Below are positions 1-11,411 of a DNA stretch of 64,000 nucleotides, piece by piece. The notes under the pieces were generated by a model, which saw only the letters and a list, made by a program, of their open reading frames with translations, did no database searches and was not told the DNA's origin. Numbering within the stretch: position 1 is the stretch's first letter; every line of letters begins with the position of its first letter. Where the stretch lies: positions 3,844,001 through 3,908,000 of the forward strand of contig NZ_CP102950.1 of the NCBI RefSeq assembly GCF_024741795.1. Direction: 5' to 3'. The position numbers and the translations under genes were made by a program. Origin of the DNA: Arthrobacter sp. CJ23. Lineage in GTDB: Bacteria; Actinomycetota; Actinomycetes; Actinomycetales; Micrococcaceae.

Positions 1-2444
1 CCGTCCGGAGTGGAGGCCCCTTTACGGAATCGGGCGGCAAAGCTGCTGAAGTCCGGCAGTGGCGGCGTGGCTGTCGCCGGGCCGGTCGCTACGATCGTGG
101 GGGCCCGCCCGCTCAGGATGCCGGGAGTCTCGTTCTCGAAGGTTTCTGCGAGTTTTACGAGAACCTCGATCAGATACGCCACGGCGCTGCGGCTGGTGCC
201 GATGTTGGTCATGAAGAGCACGCTGTTACGCGAGGTCTTGTTGACTTGGATGCCGTGTTTGTCCGCCAGATACTGATGGCGGAAGGTGTCGCCGTCGACC
301 CCGGTGCGGCTGATGTCCAGGGTCAGCCGGCTGGGGTCGACAACGAATTCATCGTGTTGCCATGCGCGTTCGAACGTTGAATAGCCGTCCCGCAACGGCA
401 TTGGGCTGGTGGAGATCCGGTACTGGGCGGGGACCAGGTCGTGGGTTGTGAGGACCCGGAAGTATTTCTTTAGAAGCGCGTTCCGGGCGACTGCCTCGGC
501 CAGGCTCGTGGCGAGGTCGGCCTGCCTTTGCACCAGACCAAATCCTTCGAGTTCCACCTGGCGGCGGCCGATGTCCAGGGACGCCAGAATCTGGTAGTTC
601 GGTGATGTCGAGGTGTGCGTCATGTACGCTTCGCGGAACGACTCCTGATTCATCTCCCTGAAGTCTTGGTCGTGGACATGGATCATCGACCCTTGGCGGA
701 GCGATGTCAGGGTCTTGTGCGTGGATTGGGTAGCGTACACCCGAAGTTTGACCTTCCTCGGATCCGGTATCAGCCGGGTGCTTAGCCAGAGCTCATCGTC
801 TGCATATTCGTTTGTCCCGGGATTCTGGAGAAGGGCCTCCTGTTTGGCGTGCCGGGCCGCATAGGACGGATCGCTGAAGGAGGACGTAAGCTTCCGCGCC
901 GCTGCCATCGCGGTTCTCCGCCGGTAAACCGGGTGGAACCCTGCGAAGGCGAACCAGGCTTCATCCCAGAGGAAAACAAGGTCCGGCTTGATGGCCAGAC
1001 ATTCTTCCATGACCCGTTCAACGTCGTAGACGATCCCGTCGAAGGTGCAGTTTGTCAGAGTGATCATCTTGACTTCATCCAGGCGGCCTTCCCGCCGGTA
1101 GTCAAGCAGTCGTTGCTTGATGCTTGTCAGCGGGACAGCCCCGTAGAAGGCATACTTATCCAGCGGGTATGCGTCCAGATATGAGACCTGGGCACCTGCC
1201 AGTGCGAAGGCATAGTGATGGGATTTGTGGCAGTTCCGGTCGACCAGGACTATATCTCCGGGAGCAAGGATTGACTGATGCACGATCTTGTTCGCAGTCG
1301 ATGTTCCATTGGTGACAAAGTATGTTCTCTCGGAGCCGAACGCGCGTGCCGCCAGATCCTGCGCACGCTTGATGGACCCATGCGGATCCAACAGCGAATC
1401 CAGGCCGCCGGATGTTGCGGAGGTCTCAGCCAGCAGAAGGTTCAGTCCATAGAAGTCGGCCATGTCACGGATCCAGGGGGAGGTGCCAACTGAACCTCCG
1501 CGGGAAATCGGCAGAGCATGGAACACGCTGGAGGGACGACGGCTGTAGTTCTGGATAGCGGTAAAGAACGGCGTCTCGTAGCGCTCAGCGATGCCCGAGA
1601 GCAGCGACAGATGCAGGTCAAGATGATCCTGTCGGCGGAAGATCCTCCTGAATCGGCGGGTCAGGGCGCCGGCCAGCGTTTCAATTGAGACGCCTGCCAC
1701 CAGGTACACGTCAAGTTCCGGGCGAAGTTCGGAGATCCTTTCGGCCAGATCAAGGATGCGCCCTATTGGGCGCATCCCTTCAAGCCGCTCACTGACGTGG
1801 CCGCCGAGGAACGTGCGAAGGTCACGTCCCAGCGGTTGTTTGCTGGTGACCTCAAAGCCGGGTCTGAGGATGCAGGCCTGAATGTCGCGGTTCAACAGCA
1901 ATGCCACGAGTGCGTCTTCGTAGCTGGAGACCACTGTGACCTCGTAGTTGAAAGCATCGGTGGTCCGTCGTTGGGCGTACATATCGGACTTGAGGGCGTC
2001 AGCTTCCTGGCCCGTGATGTCATCCACGAGAAGGACCTCAAACCGTGGTCTGGAGACATTCTCATGCCCGTCCCCCATGTCCGGCTCATGTCCCTCTTGC
2101 GGTCCTCGGCTGCTGCTCTGGGCTTCAGCCGCCGACCCGGAAGAAGGCAGCTGAGGTGCCACCGACGCCAGCAAATCCACAGCAGTCTGGAAGTCACCTG
2201 ACGTCACGGCCTCCTCGAGCCTCGCCACTGTAACCACCCCGGGAACTGCCCAGTACGGTTCAACCGCCCTCAGCAGCCCAAGCGCTCTCTGAACTTGGTC
2301 TTGCAGGCTCGCTTGGGAAGGTTTGGCGGCACTTCCCATGTTCAGCTGCTTCAGGGCATACCCCAGGAATTCCCAGGCATCGGCCCGGACGCGCCAAGCC
2401 CTGCTTGGGGTCTTGACTTCCTTGCCGGATGTCTCGTTTGTCAT
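1..2444 (-). CDS. Orn/Lys/Arg-type PLP decarboxylase (3' end outside window)
   Basis: An open frame of about 814 codons runs off the left edge. The first 240 residues look like the N-terminal wing/receiver-like domain of the Orn/Lys/Arg decarboxylase group (VLLVDD near residue 130). The PLP core follows: TNGTSTANK, DRNCHKSHHYA, LTNCTFDG, the cofactor-contacting Asp in WDEAW (about D494) and the Schiff-base Lys in STHKTL (about K577). The family decarboxylates a basic amino acid to a di- or polyamine in the cytoplasm; the substrate cannot be read here. ATG at 2444 was chosen because homology begins just after it, although its ribosome site is weak. It is the last visible gene of the PucR/glutaminase/permease/ATP-grasp/NylB operon, separated from NylB by a 202 bp structured leader. 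Confidence 0.88.
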   Translation of the reverse strand, partial: MTNETSGKEVKTPSRAWRVRADAWEFLGYALKQLNMGSAAKPSQASLQDQVQRALGLLRAVEPYWAVPGVVTVARLEEAVTSGDFQTAVDLLASVAPQLPSSGSAAEAQSSSRGPQEGHEPDMGDGHENVSRPRFEVLLVDDITGQEADALKSDMYAQRRTTDAFNYEVTVVSSYEDALVALLLNRDIQACILRPGFEVTSKQPLGRDLRTFLGGHVSERLEGMRPIGRILDLAERISELRPELDVYLVAGVSIETLAGALTRRFRRIFRRQDHLDLHLSLLSGIAERYETPFFTAIQNYSRRPSSVFHALPISRGGSVGTSPWIRDMADFYGLNLLLAETSATSGGLDSLLDPHGSIKRAQDLAARAFGSERTYFVTNGTSTANKIVHQSILAPGDIVLVDRNCHKSHHYAFALAGAQVSYLDAYPLDKYAFYGAVPLTSIKQRLLDYRREGRLDEVKMITLTNCTFDGIVYDVERVMEECLAIKPDLVFLWDEAWFAFAGFHPVYRRRTAMAAARKLTSSFSDPSYAARHAKQEALLQNPGTNEYADDELWLSTRLIPDPRKVKLRVYATQSTHKTLTSLRQGSMIHVHDQDFREMNQESFREAYMTHTSTSPNYQILASLDIGRRQVELEGFGLVQRQADLATSLAEAVARNALLKKYFRVLTTHDLVPAQYRISTSPMPLRDGYSTFERAWQHDEFVVDPSRLTLDISRTGVDGDTFRHQYLADKHGIQVNKTSRNSVLFMTNIGTSRSAVAYLIEVLVKLAETFENETPGILSGRAPTIVATGPATATPPLPDFSSFAARFRKGASTPD

Positions 2445-2530
2445 GTCTGTATCCGTGTTCTGTTTCTCGAAATGGCTGCCCGCATCCTGGGCAGCGCGAA
2501 TGGTCGGATGTGACCGAAGGACGCAGTCCG

Positions 2531-2639
2531 GTGCAGGCCTGGTATCTGGTCATTTGTTGCCCTGCACAAGGGAGAGGGCCGGTGGTGAGCAAGACTTCCA
2601 AGGCTTGAGCAGCCAGTCATGCACGCCAGCCCTCTCCCT
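2531..2639 (-). promoter_or_regulatory. structured leader RNA of the decarboxylase gene
   Basis: Two hairpins lie in the 202 bp gap between the NylB-like gene and the decarboxylase. The first pairs 2639-2626 with 2582-2569 over 14 bp; its single imperfection is a G-U wobble only on the minus-strand RNA, matching gene direction. Its interior holds a nested stem (2618-2611 with 2605-2602 and 2596-2593). The second hairpin pairs 2567-2561 with 2537-2531 (GTGCAGG/CCTGCAC). The structure starts eight bases after the NylB stop codon. It could be a cis-regulatory RNA, an attenuator or an mRNA-processing element. I cannot match it to a known riboswitch class. Confidence 0.55.
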
Positions 2640-2646
2640 AACCGGC

Positions 2647-3873
2647 CTAATGTGCTCGTTGTCGGAGCCTGGCGGTGTCCGCGGCAAGAGTGGCTGAAAT
2701 AGCGTCAAAGGCGCGCAAGGTCGAGAAGAGTTTCGCCGCGTCCTGGGGCAGCGGCCAGCTGGATAGTTTCGCGGCCACGACGCGCGCGGGGCGGTTGATG
2801 TAGATCATTTGGCCGTGGATGCCCAGACACAGCAACACGTCGTTGCCCGGGTAGGGGAACCAGATCTGGTTGCGGTACATGCCCCCGGGCATCCGGTTGT
2901 CACCCGGACTGCAGAGGAAGGCGTCCCTGGAGTCGACGGCACCGTTGAGCGTCTCTGCGATCCAGCCCGGCGAAAGGATCCGTTCATTGGTCAGAGAAAC
3001 GCCATCGTTCAGGAAGATCGAACCAAACCGGAGCATGTCGCGCAGTCCCGCGTTGATTCCTCCGTCAAACATGCCGGTGCCCACGGGGTCGGTGCCTATC
3101 GTAGCGTCCTCCTCTGCACCCATCCTGCTCCAGAGGAGCCTGGACATGAGCTCGGGCATGGGCTCTCCCGCGGCTGCTTCACAAACCCAGCCAAGGACGT
3201 CGGTTTCACAGGAGCGGTATTCGAAGACTCCTCCGTGGAAGGTCTTTTGCCGCAGGGTCTGGAGAAACCCGTACAGCGTGGTAGGTAGCCCGGGGTCCAT
3301 TCGTGGTGCCCAGCTGATAGCCTCCTCCAGGAGTCGGACCTCGGCGAAGGGATCAAGGTAGTTCTCCGAGAACGCGATGCCGGATCTCATATCCAACAGA
3401 TTCCTGACTGTGGCACCGGCGTATCCCGACCCCGCCAAAGCGGGAACGTATGCAGTTACGAGGGCGTCTGTGTCGAGGACTCCCTCATCTGACAGCGCAC
3501 CGGCAACAGTCCCGACGAGGGTCTTACTGACCGACATCAGAATGTGCGAAGACCCCGCTGTCATGCCCCCTGCATATTCTTCAGCGATGAGGTTCTCTCC
3601 GTGCATGACTGCCCAGCCGTCGGTATTAGTGGCATCGATGACTTCGCGGATGGTGGCCGGTGCCCCGTCGTGCAGGGGCGGGACACCGATGCTTTCCAGT
3701 GCGGAGCCTAGTGGCCGCGGTTGAAGAACCGCGACTGGGCCCCTTCCACGGGAAATGACAGCCGTGGGCAGGAAATCAGCCATGTGCTGGAAACTCCAAT
3801 GCAGATACTGGGTTGACTGCCAGTTTTCCAGGTTCATGCCTACCGGGTATCCGGCTTCAGTTGTGTCAGACAT
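2647..3873 (-). CDS. NylB-like serine hydrolase (beta-lactamase fold)
   Basis: A 408-residue protein closely resembling 6-aminohexanoate-oligomer hydrolase NylB, as recalled from the family. The SxxK catalytic motif is SVSK at 114-117. The tyrosine matching NylB Tyr170 is kept (SENY, residue 172), position 181 is acidic (Glu183 here, Asp in NylB), and the Tyr215 equivalent lies in FEYRSCETD. GIHGQ and KLSSWP near the end are also shared. ATG 3873 puts the serine within two residues of NylB numbering. Starts at 3891 or at GTG 3918, which overlaps the upstream stop as GTGA, are possible. It probably cleaves an amide or ester of a small linear compound; there is no secretion signal. It sits between the ATP-grasp and decarboxylase genes in one operon. 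Confidence 0.85.
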   Translation of the reverse strand: MSDTTEAGYPVGMNLENWQSTQYLHWSFQHMADFLPTAVISRGRGPVAVLQPRPLGSALESIGVPPLHDGAPATIREVIDATNTDGWAVMHGENLIAEEYAGGMTAGSSHILMSVSKTLVGTVAGALSDEGVLDTDALVTAYVPALAGSGYAGATVRNLLDMRSGIAFSENYLDPFAEVRLLEEAISWAPRMDPGLPTTLYGFLQTLRQKTFHGGVFEYRSCETDVLGWVCEAAAGEPMPELMSRLLWSRMGAEEDATIGTDPVGTGMFDGGINAGLRDMLRFGSIFLNDGVSLTNERILSPGWIAETLNGAVDSRDAFLCSPGDNRMPGGMYRNQIWFPYPGNDVLLCLGIHGQMIYINRPARVVAAKLSSWPLPQDAAKLFSTLRAFDAISATLAADTARLRQRAH

Positions 3874-3914
3874 CCGTTCTGCTAACTCCATCAATCCTGT
3901 GCTTGAAACTGCAT

Positions 3915-5555
3915 TCACTGAGACTTCACGCCCTGGGACCGCTTCGGTTCTGCGGCGTCGGACAGCGCAACCCCGAGGTAGCGCGATCGTATCGAGTCGA
4001 TGAGGTGGCGTGCACGGATGGTCAACGATGATTGTCCGTTGGTGTCGCGTTGCAGGCGTCCCTTGGTCACCAGAACGCCAAGGTCGGCGCCTTTCCACCG
4101 GTAGTCCCCCGGGCCGTAGATGCGCAGGAAGAAGGCCTCGGATTCGTCCTTGAGCTGGTGCCAGTCAAGTGCGGCACGCCGGAAGACCAGCGCGCCCGTG
4201 GCGTCCAGGAAGTACTGGCCTGTCGGTGGGGTTTCCACGAGTTGCTCTACGACCGGCGATGCTTCCTTTATGATCATTTGGCTCCATGTGTCTCCACCGG
4301 CCAGGTCCTCCCAGCGTTGGTTGATCTCATCGACGTCCAGGACGAAATCCACGTCCATGTATTCGAGCAGGTGGAAGAGGAACAGCGGGATGTCAGCGTA
4401 GGCACCGGCGGTGACGTTGGTGATCGCGGAGGCGCCGCTGATCCGGGGATTCAATTCACCCAGGTAGACCTCGTCTTCGTCGGTGTCGATGAGTACGTCG
4501 ACTTCGAAGAATCCCCGGTAGCCCTCTTCGCCCAGCCGGTCGCCGAGCCGGCGTACAAGCTCCGTTGCCTTGGTTCTTTGGCCGGGCGTGAGGACCTCGG
4601 CGTGCATTTCGTTCCCGCACCAACCGCCCCGGTACGGGGTGAGCTCCGCATATCCTGTCAGCTCCGTCAGGAACGGTCCTACCACGGTACCGCACCGGGT
4701 GATGACGGCTTCGACGGCAACCGGCAGGTTGTTGATCCTGCGCATCACCTTCAGTTCCTGGCCGATAATGTCGTCTTTGTTCTTGTCCCAATCTGCTTCG
4801 CAGGAAATGAAGAACGTAGTCTTCCCGGAGTCCCCATAGGGTGTCTGAACGACGAGATCCTCGCCGAGGCCAGCAGCCTCGGCTGCTTGGACAAGTTCGT
4901 CCCAGTCGTTGGCTGTGGTCAGGACGTTGGGGACACTTGGTGCGCCGGCTTCGTCGCCCAGTTGCGTGGTCACGATCTTCGAATCGAGGCGTTCGCGCAG
5001 GCTCGCCGGGGGCAAGATAAGGTCGTAGCCGAGTTCGGCGCAAATCGCTTCGGTTTCTTCGTTGAAGAACACCATGGCCACCTTGGGCCTGACGCCAGGG
5101 AGAAGGCCTCGCGCCATGTGCGCCCGGACTTCGGGGTTGTTCAAGAGCCAGTTGTTAATGGCCTCGCCGTCTTCGAATTCGTGGTACGGCTTGTATAGGG
5201 GTGAGAAGACCTTGGGGTGGGCTCCATCCCATGCGTCGTAGTAGGTCACGTATGAGAAGTTCCGCACCCAACGGTCCAACCCGAGCAGGTTGAAGGGCGT
5301 GGCCCCAATGAAAAACACCGGCACATCATTGGTCCGGAAGAAGTGTCGAACTTCTGAGATGTTCTCCAGCCCTCGCCCAGATGCCAGCCTCGGGACAGCT
5401 TCAGCAAACGCAGCATCCGTGCCGACGCTGATTGCGGGGGTTTCGTCGGCGGCCACGTGGTGGGAGTTCGCTGCTGCAGGAGCGGCAACTCTGGCAGCAA
5501 TTGTCGCCGGCGTGGGGGTGTTGTTTCCTTCTGCGCCGTTGGGCATGTGCTTCAT
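3915..5555 (-). CDS. ATP-grasp ligase, biotin-carboxylase-like
   Basis: A 546-residue cytoplasmic protein. The ATP-grasp fold covers about residues 190-430: an LRERLDSKIVTTQLGDEAG pre-domain segment, the nucleotide-lysine region LVVQTPYGDSGKTTFF, EVDVLIDTDEDEVYLGE, and the Mg-binding ELNPRISGAS. The family forms amide or peptide-like bonds from a carboxylate and an amine through an acyl-phosphate. No biotin or carboxyltransferase domain is present, so a free-standing carboxylate-amine ligase is more likely than a carboxylase. ATG 5555 follows AAGAGGT at good spacing; an in-frame ATG at 5609 lacks such a site. It is cotranscribed with a NylB-like amide hydrolase and a PLP decarboxylase, which suggests making and breaking a small amide. 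Confidence 0.85.
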   Translation of the reverse strand: MKHMPNGAEGNNTPTPATIAARVAAPAAANSHHVAADETPAISVGTDAAFAEAVPRLASGRGLENISEVRHFFRTNDVPVFFIGATPFNLLGLDRWVRNFSYVTYYDAWDGAHPKVFSPLYKPYHEFEDGEAINNWLLNNPEVRAHMARGLLPGVRPKVAMVFFNEETEAICAELGYDLILPPASLRERLDSKIVTTQLGDEAGAPSVPNVLTTANDWDELVQAAEAAGLGEDLVVQTPYGDSGKTTFFISCEADWDKNKDDIIGQELKVMRRINNLPVAVEAVITRCGTVVGPFLTELTGYAELTPYRGGWCGNEMHAEVLTPGQRTKATELVRRLGDRLGEEGYRGFFEVDVLIDTDEDEVYLGELNPRISGASAITNVTAGAYADIPLFLFHLLEYMDVDFVLDVDEINQRWEDLAGGDTWSQMIIKEASPVVEQLVETPPTGQYFLDATGALVFRRAALDWHQLKDESEAFFLRIYGPGDYRWKGADLGVLVTKGRLQRDTNGQSSLTIRARHLIDSIRSRYLGVALSDAAEPKRSQGVKSQ

Positions 5556-5709
5556 GGTGTTACCTCTTGGGGGTTTGGGAGCGAGATTTTGAACAAGGTG
5601 TTGGTGCAAACCATCGCTGGCGGTGCCGGCCGGCTTGCGGGACTGTGGCGGGCCCCCGACGGCGGCTGCTTAGGACGTGGTCCGTTCAGCCACTTTGTGA
5701 GCCGGTTTT

Positions 5710-7224
5710 CTACCGGAGGCTTTGTCGGTTGGCGATCACAGGCGCTTCGCCTGTGTAGCCTTCCCTGGCTGCTGCAATTTCATGGATCTGCTTGCGGCAA
5801 AGGAACCAGCCAAGCACCATGAGTCCGCAAGCGACGGCGGTGACCACCATGGTGAGCGGGGAATCAATGAAGACGATGACGAGGATGCCCGCTAGAAAGA
5901 GCAGGGACAGGTAGCCGGTATATGGGGCACCGAACATCCGGAAGGTCGGACGCTCGAGCCATCCCCGGTCGGCCCATCGCTTGAGCTGAATTTGGCACAG
6001 GACGATGGCGGCCCACATCACGATGATCCCAACTGCAGCCACGTGAAGGACGATTTCGAAAGCATCGTGGGGGACGAGGTAGTTCAACGGAACCCCGAGT
6101 AGGGAGACTCCTGCGGTGATGGCGATGCCGCCGTAGGGAACGCCGGCCTTGTTCATCCGTTGGGCGAACTTCGGGGCTGAACCGGCCATGGACATGGAAC
6201 GCAGGATCCGGCCTGTTGAGTAAAGGCCGGCGTTCAGCGAGGACAATGCAGCCGTGAGCACTACGAGGTTCATGATGACGTCTACTCCTTGGACGCCGAT
6301 TGAACCGAAGAATGTGACGAAGGGACTGACGCCCTTCTCATACGAGGTGTAGGGAAGCAGCAGGACCAAAAGCAGGACCGAACCGACGTAGAACAGACCG
6401 ATGCGGTAGACGACCGAGTTGATGGCCTTGGGCATGATCTTTTCCGGGTTCTCTGTCTCGCCCGCAGCAGTGCCCACCAGTTCGATTCCGGCGTAGGCGA
6501 ACAACACACCCTGCATCACCAGGACCATGGCGAGCAGGCCGTTGGGTAGCATGCCGCCGTTGTCCGCGATGAGGCTGAATCCAACGTCCTGGCCGTCAAT
6601 CGGGGTGCCGAAAATGACGAAGTAGGTGCCAACGAACAGGAACGCCACGAGTGCCGCGACCTTGATGAGGGAAAACCAGAACTCGAGCTCCCCGAAGACC
6701 TTCACCGAAACAAGGTTCAGGCTAAGGACCACAACCAGGGCGATAAGGGCCCACGCCCACTGCGGAACCGCGCCCATCCAAGGGATGTACTTGCCGAAGA
6801 AGTTCATGTACAGCGCGGCGGCGGTGGTATCTACGATGGTGGCCATGGCCCAGTTGATCCAGTAGAACCAGCCGACGACATAGGCTGTCTTCTCGCCGAA
6901 GAACTCCCGGGCATAGGAGACGAAGGACCCAGAGGACGGGCGGTGGAGCACGAGTTCGCCGAGCGCGCGGAGGATCAGGAAGGCAAAGAACCCGCAGATT
7001 GCGTAGGCGACGACGAGCGAAGGGCCGGCGATGTGCAGCCGTCCACCCGCGCCCAGAAACAGGCCTGTTCCGATGGCGCCGCCGATAGCAATCATCTGGA
7101 TCTGGCGGGGTTTGAGGCCCTTGTGGTACCCCGCTTCCTCTGCGTGAATAAGCGAGTCCGAGGCGTGTGCGTGACCGCCGTCGGTCAGGTGACCGTCTTT
7201 CTGATCACTGGTATTGATGGACAT
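5710..7224 (-). CDS. AnsP-like amino-acid permease (APC superfamily)
   Basis: A 504-residue inner-membrane permease with about twelve hydrophobic segments. It carries amino-acid-permease signatures: [19 protein letters not shown] at the first helix, [46 protein letters not shown] and [20 protein letters not shown]. These match asparagine permease AnsP most closely among the families I recall, so asparagine or a related amide amino acid is the likely cargo, imported with protons. ATG 7224 follows AAAGGA and was preferred to the in-frame ATG at 7284. It lies 72 bp after glutaminase in the operon; pairing with glutaminase fits uptake and deamidation of amide amino acids. Confidence 0.9.
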
Positions 7225-7296
7225 TTGATTCCTTTCGGTTTGAAGCAAAGAAGCGTGTGCATTGACAGGGCCGATCGAAATCATGGCGGGCTCTTT

Positions 7297-8241
7297 TCAG
7301 AACACAGACCAGCCAGTGCGGTCAGTGAGGTCAGCGAGTGCAGCCATTCCGGCCAGCGAGTTGCCCTTGGAGTCCAGCCGTGGACTCCAAACGCAGATGG
7401 AGTATCTCCCGGGGACGATGACTAGGATTCCGCCACCAACGCCGCTCTTGCCCGGGAGCCCGACCCGATAGGCGAACTCTCCGGCGGCGTCGTACATGCC
7501 GCATGTCAGCATGATGGAGCAGATACGTTTTGCTTGGTCCTTTGACACAACGGAGCCGGCTTCCCCACGTCCGCCGCGCGCCAGGAACAGCCCGGCCTTC
7601 GCCGTCTGTTCGCAGGTCATCATCACGGAGCACTGCCTGATGTAGGACTCGACCACCGCTTGGGCTGGGTGGCGCAAGTTGCCAAAGTCCTTCAGGAAGT
7701 GCGCGAGAGCAAGATTGCGGTTGCCGCTGGCGAGCTCGCTTTGGGCCGCCGCTTCATCAATGAAGGGGCCAACCCCGACAGTCGACTCCCCCACCTGCTC
7801 CGCGAGGAAACGCAGGAAGTGGCCCGCGGAGTCCGGGAAGCTCTCCATTAGATGATCGGTCACAACCAGTGCGCCAGGGTTGATGAAGGGGTTTCGAGGA
7901 ATCCCGTGCTCAACTTCAAGCTGCACCAGGGAATCAAAGGAGGTCCCCGAAGGCTCGCGAAGGACTCGGGACCACAGCGAGTCCCGGTCATCCACGCCGA
8001 GTGCCATGGCCAAGGTGAAGACCTTGGAAATGCTCTGTATCGAGAAGGGGATGCCGGCATCGCCGGCGCTGAAGATCTCTCCGGTCGTGGTGGCGACGGC
8101 GATCCCGAACCGGTCGAACGGTGGAGCGGACAAATGCGGAATCCTGGCGGGGACCGAACCACGTTCATTCCGCGGCCTGTGCAGCTGGACAATGTCGTCC
8201 AGCACGACTCCCAAGGGGACCGAATCGATTACTGTAGTCAT
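7297..8241 (-). CDS. glsA: glutaminase A
   Basis: A 314-residue glutaminase of the serine-dependent, beta-lactamase-like fold. It hydrolyses L-glutamine to glutamate and ammonia in the cytoplasm. The catalytic SxxK motif is SISK at residues 70-73. Family signatures INPGALVV, FLKDFGN, YIRQCSVMM, LTCGMYDAAGEFAYRVGLPGKSGVGGGI and the C-terminal VWSPRLDSKGNS are all present, and the length is normal. Its ATG overlaps the stop of the regulator gene by four bases (ATGA), so the two are translationally coupled. It supplies nitrogen from glutamine and may act on the cargo of the next gene's permease. Confidence 0.95.
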   Translation of the reverse strand: MTTVIDSVPLGVVLDDIVQLHRPRNERGSVPARIPHLSAPPFDRFGIAVATTTGEIFSAGDAGIPFSIQSISKVFTLAMALGVDDRDSLWSRVLREPSGTSFDSLVQLEVEHGIPRNPFINPGALVVTDHLMESFPDSAGHFLRFLAEQVGESTVGVGPFIDEAAAQSELASGNRNLALAHFLKDFGNLRHPAQAVVESYIRQCSVMMTCEQTAKAGLFLARGGRGEAGSVVSKDQAKRICSIMLTCGMYDAAGEFAYRVGLPGKSGVGGGILVIVPGRYSICVWSPRLDSKGNSLAGMAALADLTDRTGWSVF

Positions 8242-9836
8242 TTCTTTTCCGCTTGCTCCTTGTACTTATCCGCCCACTCCTGAACGTGAAGCAGGGCAAC
8301 CAAGGAATGGCGCGGATCAGTGAAGTCCAGGCCGGTAATCCGTCCGGCCTTGCTGATCCTGTAATAGACAGTGTTCTTATGCAGATTCATGCGATGCGCA
8401 CATGCGGCGACGTCCAGTGAGACCTCGAAATACACGCGAAGCGTCTCGGCCAGATCACTGTCCTCACGAAGGAGGGTCCAGAGCGCGCGGTGACGAAAGG
8501 CCGACGCTGTGAAATCTGCCACTGCCTCGTGGAGGAGGATCTCCGCCTCGAAATCGTCTTCGGTGGCCACCGAAGCGTCCCCTCCGCGGCGCAGACAGCG
8601 CAGTAAGGCCTCGGTTTTCGCGATCGTCGAGTGAACCGACAAAAGGTCAGCAGCGAGTGGTCCAACTGCTGCAAACGGGGAGATCCCCAAGTGCTTGGTC
8701 GCATCACCGACGATGGCCTCCGCCAGGATCCGAAGCCCAGCCTTGGCGTTCTTCGGCTGCAGTCCCGGGAGGACGACAGCGGTGTCTCCCCTGAATTGCC
8801 CCACGATGGCAGACGCTTTATAGGCTGCCGCATGTATGGACGCCAGATTGGCAAGTTCGCCGTGCTTGAGTGCCGCATCGTCGGCCTGTGCGGCCTCGGC
8901 CGAGATTCCTATCAGGATCAGGGCTGCGGGGAGATCCGCAGGCATCTTCTCACTGTGGGCACAGGCCGCGGCTTCCGCAGGGCCGGACAGGATACGAACG
9001 ATCCGGTCCTCCCGCATCGGTAACGCCTGATGGTTGCGATACCGGATCAATTCGGCCGCCGCCCGCGTGGCCGAGCCGCTCAGAACATACTCAACATCCT
9101 GACCAAAGCCCTCCCCCGTTTCCTGAAGCCAGATGTACCCCATGATGCGGTGGCCCGCGAACAATGCAATGGCAACGCGTTCCCTCAAACCGTCCTGTGG
9201 CCTGGCAGGTACCCGAACAGTCGCGCGAGTCCGGTGCAGTTCGCGATAGGCGCCGAGGTCTTTGAGCAGCAGTTCATATTTACGCGGACCCCGCCGCGCC
9301 AGTATCGATGCCTTGCGGAGTTCATCGATGTCATTGCACACAGTGGAGTACGCGAGCACCTTGTTGGCCGCGTCCTCAATGACGACATGGCTGGACGTCA
9401 GGCGCGCAGTCGTTTGAGCTATGGCAAAAAGGTCCTCCTCGAGCAGCGTGAGAACTTCACTCTGGTAGCTGCGCGGCTGGATCCTGGCATTGGCAATGGA
9501 AACAAACCGGTCCCAGTCCGAATCCGGGTCCACCAGCAGAAGTCCAGCCCCGGTCTCCCTTAGAAGTTCCTCCACTTCTGCCACCTCCTCGGGCCGGCCC
9601 TTCACGGCCAGCACCAGCGGCGGATTAGCAAGAAGCCGGCGAACAGCAGGCAAAACGGAGCGGCCGCGAACTCCCACCAACAGAACCAATGCAGCCCGGA
9701 CGTCCCTCGTCTCGTCATCGGCGTCGACGATCAGCAAACGCTCAATCCGATGGACGGGACAGGTGGGGTGAAGAATGAGTCTGGCGCAACCCGGCGGGAG
9801 ATCCGACAGGATGTCGTCCACAGTAGCTGTCGCCAT
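8238..9836 (-). CDS. PucR-family transcriptional regulator
   Basis: A 532-residue regulator. The C-terminal helix-turn-helix of the PucR/CdaR type is clear near residues 470-525 (VSLDVAACAHRMNLHKNTVYYRISKAGR, given here only to locate it by its central NTVYYRI). The middle region resembles the GAF/GGDEF-like sensor part of the family, and the N-terminal 150 residues look like a purine-catabolism-regulator domain. PucR proteins activate or repress nitrogen catabolism genes. ATG 9836 follows AGAAGGAAG; a longer in-frame start at 9884 would read through the palindrome at 9860-9879. It is the first gene of the operon and probably controls it. Confidence 0.85.
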   Translation of the reverse strand: MATATVDDILSDLPPGCARLILHPTCPVHRIERLLIVDADDETRDVRAALVLLVGVRGRSVLPAVRRLLANPPLVLAVKGRPEEVAEVEELLRETGAGLLLVDPDSDWDRFVSIANARIQPRSYQSEVLTLLEEDLFAIAQTTARLTSSHVVIEDAANKVLAYSTVCNDIDELRKASILARRGPRKYELLLKDLGAYRELHRTRATVRVPARPQDGLRERVAIALFAGHRIMGYIWLQETGEGFGQDVEYVLSGSATRAAAELIRYRNHQALPMREDRIVRILSGPAEAAACAHSEKMPADLPAALILIGISAEAAQADDAALKHGELANLASIHAAAYKASAIVGQFRGDTAVVLPGLQPKNAKAGLRILAEAIVGDATKHLGISPFAAVGPLAADLLSVHSTIAKTEALLRCLRRGGDASVATEDDFEAEILLHEAVADFTASAFRHRALWTLLREDSDLAETLRVYFEVSLDVAACAHRMNLHKNTVYYRISKAGRITGLDFTDPRHSLVALLHVQEWADKYKEQAEKK

Positions 9837-9859
9837 GGGCTTCCTTCTGACAGTGCATA

Positions 9860-9879
9860 TCCGGACGGCACCGTCCGGA
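9860..9879. promoter_or_regulatory. palindromic operator candidate upstream of the PucR operon
   Basis: TCCGGACGGCACCGTCCGGA has two perfect 9 bp arms around a 2 bp centre. It ends 24 bp upstream of the PucR start codon. Position and symmetry suggest an operator for the regulator itself or a leader hairpin. About 20 bp further upstream is a looser repeat (GAACA ... TGTTC, near 9896-9912) that could be a second site. Confidence 0.5.
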
Positions 9880-10550
9880 CTCACAACGTTACTTAGAACA
9901 CATTCCTTGTTCTTGTGTCCCGGTTCTAAACTTTTTGGCTCATTTTCGGTCCTCGAACCAAAGCGCTCCTGGGAGGTTCAATGGCGGCGGTATAACCATG
10001 GCCTTGGGCTGAAAGCATGCTGGATTGCAGAGCATTTCTTCAGGTGGATGGGTCGTCTGCGGGAACTGTCAGGGCCTAGAGTGGTTCGCGTCCTGTACCT
10101 CTTGCTTTGCGTGAAAGCGAAGGACAGCAGTGGCTAGAAAACAATGCGGACAGTGAATCCGTTTCCCGGAGCCACCGGAAGGTTGCATTGAATGATGCTC
10201 TCTTTGAGTCGGCGTCCAGTCGTTCCGGATCGCGGGTGGTTATCTGGGGAATGGCTGTGGCTTTCAATCGCTGGAAATGTGAGTGGTGGCCTTTTGTTTT
10301 CTGGTCGGATGATGGGTTTCACCCCCACACCAGCGTCAGGAATTGGCCGACGGAACGCGCCTGGGTCTCAGGCGGTCCCCAACTACAGGCCATGCGCTGT
10401 CAGGCTGTCCGGCTGTCTGACAGGTTCATATAACGAGAATCGCAGCCCCAGTTGTGAGCGTCAAGACATTTCCTCAGATGTCGGCAGCGGCGTTCAGCCG
10501 CCCCTCCCCCAACTGGTCACCAAGTAGCCTCAGCAGGCACCAAAACAGCA
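9880..10550. other. long intergenic region with promoter of the PucR operon
   Basis: About 670 bp between the PucR start and the 3' end of the aminohydrolase gene. No reading frame here resembles a protein, and codon-position GC looks random. It must hold the promoter of the minus-strand operon; the AT-richer stretch 9895-9950 is the likeliest place. An inverted repeat, CTGTCAG/CTGACAG (10397-10403 and 10417-10423), lies near the other end. I see no transposon remnant or RNA gene. Confidence 0.5.
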
Positions 10551-10585
10551 GAGAACGACGGCGGGAAGTTCCCGCCGTCGCTCTC
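10551..10585 (-). terminator. hairpin terminator after the aminohydrolase gene
   Basis: CGACGGCGGGAA pairs perfectly with TTCCCGCCGTCG around one base, extended by GAGA/TCTC. It lies 23 bp past the aminohydrolase stop. It is a member of the GACGACGGCGGGA hairpin family found nine times in the window. Confidence 0.75.
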
Positions 10586-10607
10586 TTGCACTAGCCTCCA
10601 ACGGCTC

Positions 10608-11411
10608 CTAGCTGAGACGGCACTGACGGTTGACCGCTTTGTATTGGAGGTAGCGGAACTGTTCCGGGCCGCTGACATAGCAGGCTTGCGGGCAAAAGGA
10701 GTGCAGCCGGAGAGAGTCCCCTGCGTCGACTTGCACCCAGTCCTCGTTGAGCTTGTAGAGAGCGCTGCCTGACAGGACGAAGATGCCGCGTTCCATCGCA
10801 TGCGTTTCGGTGGAGGGAATGGTCCCGTTGGGTTGGATGGTGACGATGTCGACGTGCATGTCGTGGGCGAGGTTGTTCGGGTCGACAAACTGTTTCGTGC
10901 TCCGGACTCCGTCGCTTCCGGCTTGGACCGACGGTGGTACGTCGCGCTCCCGCGTCACGAAGGAGGTGGCACTCTGGCCCTCCAAGGCAACGTACGCTTT
11001 GCGGATCCAGTGAAACCGTGCGGTCTCGTGCGATGAATTGTGGACGGTCCAGTCCGCGCCGGCAGCCAGATATGCGTAGCTGCCTTCCTCCAATTCGTGC
11101 GTTTCACCGTCGAGTGTCAGCTGCAGCGTGCCGCTGGTCAGGAAGACTACGGCTTCGACGCCGGGTTCGAGTTCGGGGCTGTTGCTCCCGCCGCCGGGAT
11201 GGACTTCAACGCTGTGGTGCGTGAACCGGTCAACGAATCCCTTCATGGGGCTGGCGACGACCCAGGCGCGGGTCTTTGTCCAGCCCGTCAGCTGGAGGAC
11301 GGTGGTGTCGCTCGACGCGCCGTTGGGAACGAGGGCGTAGGCAGTTTGGAAGGCGGTGGTTTGGCGTTGCCGGTGCCTCGGGGGCACAGTGGCGTCATGG
11401 GTGGTGCGCAT
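10608..11411 (-). CDS. allE: (S)-ureidoglycine aminohydrolase, bicupin
   Basis: A 267-residue double-cupin protein. It matches AllE/UGHY in both cupins: PGVEAVVFLTSGTLQL and LEEGSYAYLAAG in the first, and ETHAMERGIFVLSG, YKLNEDWVQVDAGD and CPQACYVSG in the second, where the Mn-binding Glu and His sit (ETH...E). The enzyme releases ammonia from (S)-ureidoglycine in allantoin degradation. ATG 11411 follows AGGAG. It is 43 bp behind the dctA-like gene in one operon and near a PucR regulator, consistent with purine or ureide nitrogen use, although no allantoinase or allantoate amidohydrolase is in view. Confidence 0.82.
   Translation of the reverse strand: MRTTHDATVPPRHRQRQTTAFQTAYALVPNGASSDTTVLQLTGWTKTRAWVVASPMKGFVDRFTHHSVEVHPGGGSNSPELEPGVEAVVFLTSGTLQLTLDGETHELEEGSYAYLAAGADWTVHNSSHETARFHWIRKAYVALEGQSATSFVTRERDVPPSVQAGSDGVRSTKQFVDPNNLAHDMHVDIVTIQPNGTIPSTETHAMERGIFVLSGSALYKLNEDWVQVDAGDSLRLHSFCPQACYVSGPEQFRYLQYKAVNRQCRLS

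Follow-up and report, generated by a model that had tools for sequence, protein, structure and literature searches.

Gene content of the locus

At the left edge of a 64,000-nucleotide stretch of the Arthrobacter sp. CJ23 genome (the window, bases 3844001-3908000 of one 4.63-Mb contig), six tandem minus-strand genes encode, in order, a PucR-family regulator, a glutaminase, an AnsP-like permease, an ATP-grasp protein, a NylB-like hydrolase and an Orn/Lys/Arg-type decarboxylase dependent on pyridoxal phosphate (PLP). The original prediction had read all six as one pathway around an amide used as a nitrogen source, an interpretation that is right in kind and too wide in extent. We find that the six-gene set is a local, lineage-specific form of a two-to-three-gene core consisting of the ATP-grasp and hydrolase genes, joined in part of the loci by the decarboxylase gene. 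All six predicted reading frames are present, and each matches the family named for it:

8238..9884, minus strand: PucR-family regulator with a C-terminal HTH_30 domain, operon gene 1 (PF13556, E 4.7e-16)
7297..8241, minus strand: glutaminase (PF04960, E 3.8e-101; NCBIfam glutaminase models over cut-off)
5710..7284, minus strand: AnsP-like amino acid permease (PF00324, E 2.7e-111)
3915..5555, minus strand: ATP-grasp ligase, family NF005096 (NF005096 match and predicted ATP-grasp fold; probable ATG start at 5555, frame open to 5609)
2647..3873, minus strand: NylB-like serine hydrolase of the 6-aminohexanoate-dimer hydrolase family (PF00144; 3vwm, E 9.4e-66; alternative start GTG at 3918)
2445..2646, minus strand: 202-bp gap between the hydrolase and decarboxylase genes with a strong GC-rich hairpin (-85.1 kcal/mol, z -3.4)
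1..2444, minus strand: Orn/Lys/Arg-type PLP decarboxylase, truncated by the window edge (PF01276, 262.8 bits)

The ATGA overlap expected between the first two genes is present (PucR stop at 8238-8240, glutaminase ATG at 8241). The GTGA overlap proposed for the ATP-grasp and hydrolase genes also exists in the sequence (stop at 3915-3917, GTG at 3918), but a 41-bp gap appears at least as likely, because an in-frame ATG at 3873, 45 bases past the GTG, has a counterpart in the related locus L028, where the start is a gene-caller choice. For the ATP-grasp gene the probable start is ATG 5555, preceded by AAGAGG, which leaves 154 bp after the permease gene. None of 200 shuffles of the 202-bp gap folded as well as the native sequence, and its hairpin may separate the hydrolase and decarboxylase transcripts. 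The permease scores 603.7 bits against the L-asparagine permease model, under the model cut-off of 773, and amide amino acids as its substrate class are a guess from the family.

The conserved pair and its enzymes

The ATP-grasp and hydrolase genes recur side by side. Scanning GTDB genomes for the ATP-grasp protein of the window gave 58 named loci, which were found by patterns of that protein and lean to near relatives (at least 63% identity, best segment). Together with 2 loci of the CJ23 genome itself, 13 wide flanks and 10 plasmid records, out of 32 that matched the ligase, these make up 83 loci; wide flanks were taken for 14 of 18 matches in 16 genomes, one of them the second copy in CJ23. 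Neighbours were placed on the 83 loci by tblastn of reference proteins and then counted. The ATP-grasp tree holds 82 rows, as L082, whose ligase frame is split, was left out, and "directly downstream" here means on the strand of the ATP-grasp gene and no more than 700 bp away from it.

Of the named loci, 57 have enough flank to judge, and in 51 of these a NylB-type hydrolase gene lies directly downstream. Three of the six exceptions are mycobacterial and are considered below; the others are L069, where C45 and NylB-type genes flank the ligase gene on either side on the other strand; L072, with the hydrolase more than 6 kb off; and L082, where the hydrolase adjoins the second ligase piece. A hydrolase gene is directly downstream in 23 of the remaining 25 loci (NylB-type in 6, C45 in 17), the misses being L088, with a convergent C45 gene, and L089, at a contig end. 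Since the partner type changes at least twice on the ATP-grasp tree, the slot downstream of the ligase is taken by either of two unrelated hydrolase families, NylB-type and C45. The pair occurs in Actinomycetota and on Pseudomonadota plasmids. L035 has two NylB-type genes around one ligase gene, and L082 carries a duplicated ligase–hydrolase stretch in which the ligase copies are frame-split.

A decarboxylase gene is found within 3.5 kb of the ligase gene in 27 of the 83 loci (19 of 58 named, 8 of 25 other). It takes three arrangements, same-strand downstream (12 loci), same-strand upstream (8) and convergent (7), and the state of this linkage changes at least eight times on the ATP-grasp tree. 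The recurring association of ligase, amide hydrolase and amine-making decarboxylase thus stands as originally proposed, but its six-gene extent does not. A single one of the 58 named relatives, L028, had the complete set, and we rejected the six genes as a conserved system; L029 has five plus a glutaminase remnant. The core is taken to be two to three genes because L028 alone combines close copies (at least 76% identity) of the regulator, glutaminase and permease, with L029 keeping the regulator, the permease and the remnant. Other loci have at most other PucR-type regulators or permeases at 25-31% identity, apart from a 58% permease in L086. The glutaminase and the uptake of amide amino acids therefore look like accessories.

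The ATP-grasp protein has no Pfam match and passes NCBIfam model NF005096, named biotin carboxylase, with 732 bits (cut-off 684). Its family is large, with 6820 proteins at E <= 1e-20 among 8000 candidates scored, and many of the named members listed are called biotin carboxylase. A structure predicted from an alignment of 43 ATP-grasp sequences (A2; pLDDT 83.6) assigns the ATP-grasp fold. The fold matches listed are ATP-grasp enzymes, with Z scores of 21.8 for PurK-type enzymes, 21.3 for PurT, 21.2 for biotin carboxylase, 21.0 for PurD and 20.3 for PylC and root-mean-square deviations of 3.8-4.9 across 50 rows; the search of the model picked out no single substrate class. The E-x-N-P-R metal-binding motif is intact, with E334, N336, P337 and R338 invariant in 43 of 43 sequences of A2 and a stricter pattern present in 72 of the 82 rows of the ligase family. 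The biotin-carboxylase motif QVEH, which follows N-P-R or N-T-R, occurs in none of these 82 rows, and we rejected a biotin carboxylase identity on that ground; in the alignment ELNPRISGAS stands against EVNPRIQVEH. Absence of QVEH beside an invariant E-x-N-P-R argues for a carboxylate-amine ligase.

The closest solved relatives of the hydrolase are 6-aminohexanoate-dimer hydrolases. With NylB residue numbers counted along the alignment, catalytic positions Ser112, Lys115, Tyr170 and Tyr215 are kept in all 66 hydrolase homologues, position 181 is acidic in all 66 (58 Glu, 8 Asp), and position 266 is Asp in 65 and Asn in one, NylB itself having Asn. Asp181 and Asn266 are residues of the high-activity NylB enzyme. 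The acid at 181 and the Asp at 266 would suit a cationic substrate, and the extra acid at 266 may fit a more cationic one. The window family is thus like NylB in belonging to the same serine hydrolase family and in its catalytic residues, and unlike it in having Asp at 266 and in its pairing with an ATP-grasp gene. Tyr215, Lys115, Ser112 and Asp181 are given in a figure legend of PMC11052090, and the available text of a nylonase screen (PMC10858056) gives no natural substrate for NylB. In Arthrobacter sp. ERGS1:01, a plasmid-borne gene for a NylB-like hydrolase (L104:7971-9173, 49% identity) adjoins urate catabolism genes, and no ligase is annotated in the stretch shown.

The full decarboxylase has 900 residues (L009:11742-14444 in the genome) and aligns over its whole length, residues 19-898, with Rv2531c of Mycobacterium tuberculosis (structures 9n0n/9n0o, 733 bits). 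STHK, which we take to be the PLP-lysine motif, is intact in 27 of 27 decarboxylase homologues. The best NCBIfam models for its substrate are far under cut-off. The genome has a second decarboxylase copy (66% identity), which lies away from the second ligase gene.

Possible functions of the pair and its relatives

We hypothesize, with a probability of about 0.42, that the core is a cap-and-uncap module for amines derived from basic amino acids. The decarboxylase would convert Lys, Orn or Arg to a diamine or agmatine, and the ATP-grasp enzyme would join this amine to a carboxylate; the gamma-carboxyl of glutamate is a plausible candidate, and the glutaminase could provide that glutamate. Once capped, the molecule would be processed at its free end, and the NylB-like enzyme would then cleave the amide to an omega-amino acid or amine for nitrogen use. 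We infer the ligase chemistry, the reaction direction, the acyl donor, the amine and the sequential action of the two enzymes. An intermediate step or separate timing would be needed, because an adjacent ligase and hydrolase in one cell would waste ATP.

By analogy, we take a Puu-like logic of capping, oxidising and uncapping as the likeliest reading for the operon. The Puu route, as outlined in the available part of PMC9397018, caps a diamine with glutamate in an ATP-dependent step, oxidises it and uncaps it to yield an omega-amino acid. The proposed logic shares with the Puu pathway of E. coli (PuuA-PuuD) the ATP-dependent capping of a diamine and a later hydrolytic release, and differs in its enzymes, as the ligase of the window is of the ATP-grasp type and the hydrolase NylB-type (C45 in relatives). 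PuuA presumably belongs to the glutamine-synthetase family and PuuD to Peptidase_C26; the window operon has no glutamine-synthetase-type ligase, C26 hydrolase, PuuB or PuuC gene.

Other known systems resemble the pair in part. Glutathionylspermidine synthetase/amidase likewise has ligase and amide-hydrolase activities directed at a polyamine, but in a single fused protein and with glutathione as donor. The synthetase has an ATP-grasp fold, and its hydrolase belongs to another family. In insects, ebony links a biogenic amine with an amino acid, and the conjugate is split by tan, a C45-family hydrolase; ebony is similar to nonribosomal peptide synthetases and is not an ATP-grasp enzyme. Ebony and tan, taken with an amine-making decarboxylase, match the ligase/hydrolase plan, although the hydrolase of the window operon is NylB-type and not C45. 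The ligation by glutathionylspermidine synthetase is described as ATP-dependent in the part of PMC9397018 available. No description of the ligase–hydrolase cassette was found in the open-licence literature searched, and it looks undescribed.

The genes beside the pair in other loci give some indication of its substrates. The second ligase–hydrolase pair of the CJ23 genome (L086, genome 614001-634000) has as neighbours a related permease, an M20-family amidohydrolase (allantoate-amidohydrolase-type model over cut-off), a nitrilase-family protein whose best models are far under cut-off, and a flavoenzyme that matches the L-amino acid oxidase/monooxygenase 3we0, presumably acting on lysine, with 799 bits. 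In L043 the order is nitrilase, flavoenzyme, ligase, hydrolase, and upstream in L030 are a thiamine diphosphate (TPP) enzyme gene and an aminobutyraldehyde-dehydrogenase-type gene. On Shinella and Roseateles plasmids the pair lies among genes annotated as agmatinase, 5-guanidino-2-oxopentanoate decarboxylase, aldehyde dehydrogenase, D-amino acid dehydrogenase and alanine racemase, the racemase being ornithine-racemase-like at a score under the model cut-off. Nocardiaceae loci have a GABA (gamma-aminobutyrate) transaminase, an aldehyde dehydrogenase and an NAD-glutamate dehydrogenase beside the pair. The common theme of these neighbours is basic and omega-amino acids; it covers the loci with annotated neighbours, which leaves aside those of Brevibacterium among others. 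Use of the amide as a nitrogen source fits many of the neighbours, judging by their predicted functions. A near-identical second flavoenzyme gene is present at L086:18172-19815, and in another actinobacterium a saccharopine-dehydrogenase-like gene (L088:1837-3183) sits beside GABA transaminase, amidase, ligase and C45 genes.

Several points weigh against a cap-and-uncap module. The window operon contains no amine oxidase or aldehyde dehydrogenase gene, and so no gene for the step between capping and uncapping. A Peptidase_C26 (PuuD-family) gene is present elsewhere in the genome (161 bits), so that a substitute for PuuD is not forced. No substrate or product is known for the ligase and hydrolase, fold matches cannot separate a ligase from a carboxylase, and in the three mycobacterial loci a PucR-type gene occupies the hydrolase slot. 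The decarboxylase was not found within 3.5 kb of the ligase in 56 of 83 loci, some of them on short contigs, and the activity of its nearest solved relative, Rv2531c, is not established according to the part of PMC12910592 available.

Genome-wide co-occurrence was rejected as independent support, which also counts against the proposal. Among 57 genomes of one genus, 37 have the ligase and 38 the decarboxylase, and the two agree (both or neither) in 56, with the genes in some cases hundreds of kilobases apart (e.g. G604). This co-occurrence adds little, because an rpoB tree of 56 of the 57 genomes (G688, with only a partial match, was left out) reduces presence to one event and the mismatch to another, so that it amounts to approximately one observation. 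In a sample of 297 genomes of the order, 16 have the ligase, 15 the decarboxylase and 14 both, 12 of these 14 being from that same genus. A phylum sample of 396 genomes gave 16, 9 and 5, respectively, with one of the 16 ligase matches weak (27% identity).

Alternatively, the decarboxylase and ligase could produce a small amide, an amine conjugate, as an end product for storage or export, to be split by hydrolases at a later time or in different cells; the rhizobial counterpart would be a rhizopine-like compound made in nodules. We regard this as doubtful, although rhizobial plasmids give it some weight. We analysed four of 26 Rhizobium/Sinorhizobium plasmid records with a ligase match, L100, L103 and L106 from Rhizobium leguminosarum and L108 from Sinorhizobium meliloti SM11. 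All four carry decarboxylase, ligase and C45 genes followed by an ABC importer, an amidase, an RpiR regulator and a NylB-type hydrolase, as identified by annotation and, for L108, by similarity. In L103 and L106 the cassette adjoins nifHDKEN, and a copy of the nifH upstream region precedes the decarboxylase gene (91% over 139 bp and 79% over 224 bp, respectively). In L108, NifA-type sites and -24/-12 boxes number two each, the boxes having 0 and 1 mismatch against 0.32 boxes expected, and short nifH-start fragments are also present. L100 has four NifA-type sites against 0.35 expected and a -24/-12-like box seen by eye, the sole box of the scan being on the other strand. The box scan found none in L103 and L106, where the box ends in TTGA, and a near NifA-type site in L103, seen by eye, is two bases short. 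Such nif-type signals upstream of presumed synthesis genes suggest a rhizopine-like role on these four plasmids. Against a general role of this kind, the non-rhizobial plasmid loci scanned, L101, L110 and L105, have no -24/-12 box and one distant NifA-type match, in L105; the ligase and hydrolase genes of Arthrobacter are adjacent, which would waste ATP if both enzymes acted simultaneously on one compound; and no amide end product is known.

Known rhizopine genes (mos/moc) offer a comparison for the rhizobial relatives only. We take the mos genes to use a nifH-like promoter. The likeness lies in the nif-type promoter on presumed synthesis genes and in linked genes for presumed uptake and breakdown, whereas the enzymes differ and the rhizobial cassette is known from genes alone. 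Under the rhizopine plan, as given in the available text of PMC8416774, a compound produced by bacteroids serves their free-living kin; the known rhizopine derives from inositol (PMC3538637, in the part available), and the text available from that source on the Mesorhizobium NifA regulon names no decarboxylase or biotin carboxylase. A gene of a Paraburkholderia symbiotic plasmid named ATP-grasp/biotin carboxylase is reported, in the part of PMC8305402 available, to be up in nodules of a nifA mutant; we could not tie it to the ligase family, and the direction of the change is unsuited to activation by NifA. A bolder and rather improbable version is that the core is a widespread unrecognised amine-conjugation system, whose rhizobial form under copied nifH promoters makes a polyamine-derived nodule amide, with the importer, amidase and NylB-type hydrolase feeding free-living kin, and thus a second kind of rhizopine. 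NylB-type hydrolases acting in this way would further reveal a natural task for relatives of the nylon-dimer enzyme. Sinorhizobium medicae plasmid records (e.g. NZ_CP140931.1) have ligase matches in pieces, as two hypothetical proteins covering 38-39% of the query, possibly decayed copies.

It is quite unlikely that the ATP-grasp enzyme makes or salvages dipeptides of Lys, Arg or Orn and that the hydrolases (NylB-type, C45 or M20) free the amino acid for a decarboxylase or oxygenase. M20 deacylases of the ArgE/DapE type precede the ligase and C45 genes in part of the other actinobacterial loci, and a peptide-type ABC transporter is annotated in Roseobacter, but the solved NylB relatives hydrolyse omega-amino-acid dimers and are not alpha-dipeptidases, and an ATP-using ligase would be superfluous in peptide salvage. 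Least credible is a carboxylase, as the database name has it, acting on an amine or guanidine with bicarbonate: the name NF005096 carries and the presence of PurK and biotin carboxylase among the best fold matches speak for it, while the missing QVEH motif and the absence of biotin-carrier and carboxyltransferase Pfam domains from the six operon proteins (the rest of the genome was not searched for them) speak against it, and it leaves the tight pairing with amide hydrolases unexplained. Should the cap-and-uncap module be real, a large family with many members named biotin carboxylase would supply the amide ligation step of a missing pathway, it would become possible to test what nylon-dimer hydrolase relatives do in nature, and the rhizobial version would be a concrete lead on ways in which symbionts may feed their kin. 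The close pairing would also narrow the candidate substrates to a short list.

Surroundings and apparent acquisition of the operon

Two further features lie upstream of the operon:

10550..10586, minus strand: terminator-like hairpin at the 3' end of the ureidoglycine aminohydrolase gene (17 pairs, T-rich tail)
10546..10882, no strand assigned: right copy of a 337-bp direct repeat around the operon (97.9% over 337 bp; left copy L009:9363-9699)

The hairpin, read from 10586 to 10550, is the terminator-like end of the gene upstream of the PucR gene and has by far the longest stem in the scan, in which terminator-like sites numbered 11 against 10.2 expected, i.e. no excess. The operon looks recently acquired. 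The direct repeat consists of the 3' end of the ureidoglycine aminohydrolase gene with the hairpin, and its two copies start 13.2 kb apart. In 1.5-kb steps, GC content is 58.5-61.1% across the operon and 61.6-70.3% outside, and the ligase is missing in 7 of 7 other genomes of the source genus in the order sample. The upstream ureidoglycine gene is itself unlike the copies in ten other genomes of the genus (66-70%), so the foreign DNA probably extends beyond the repeats.

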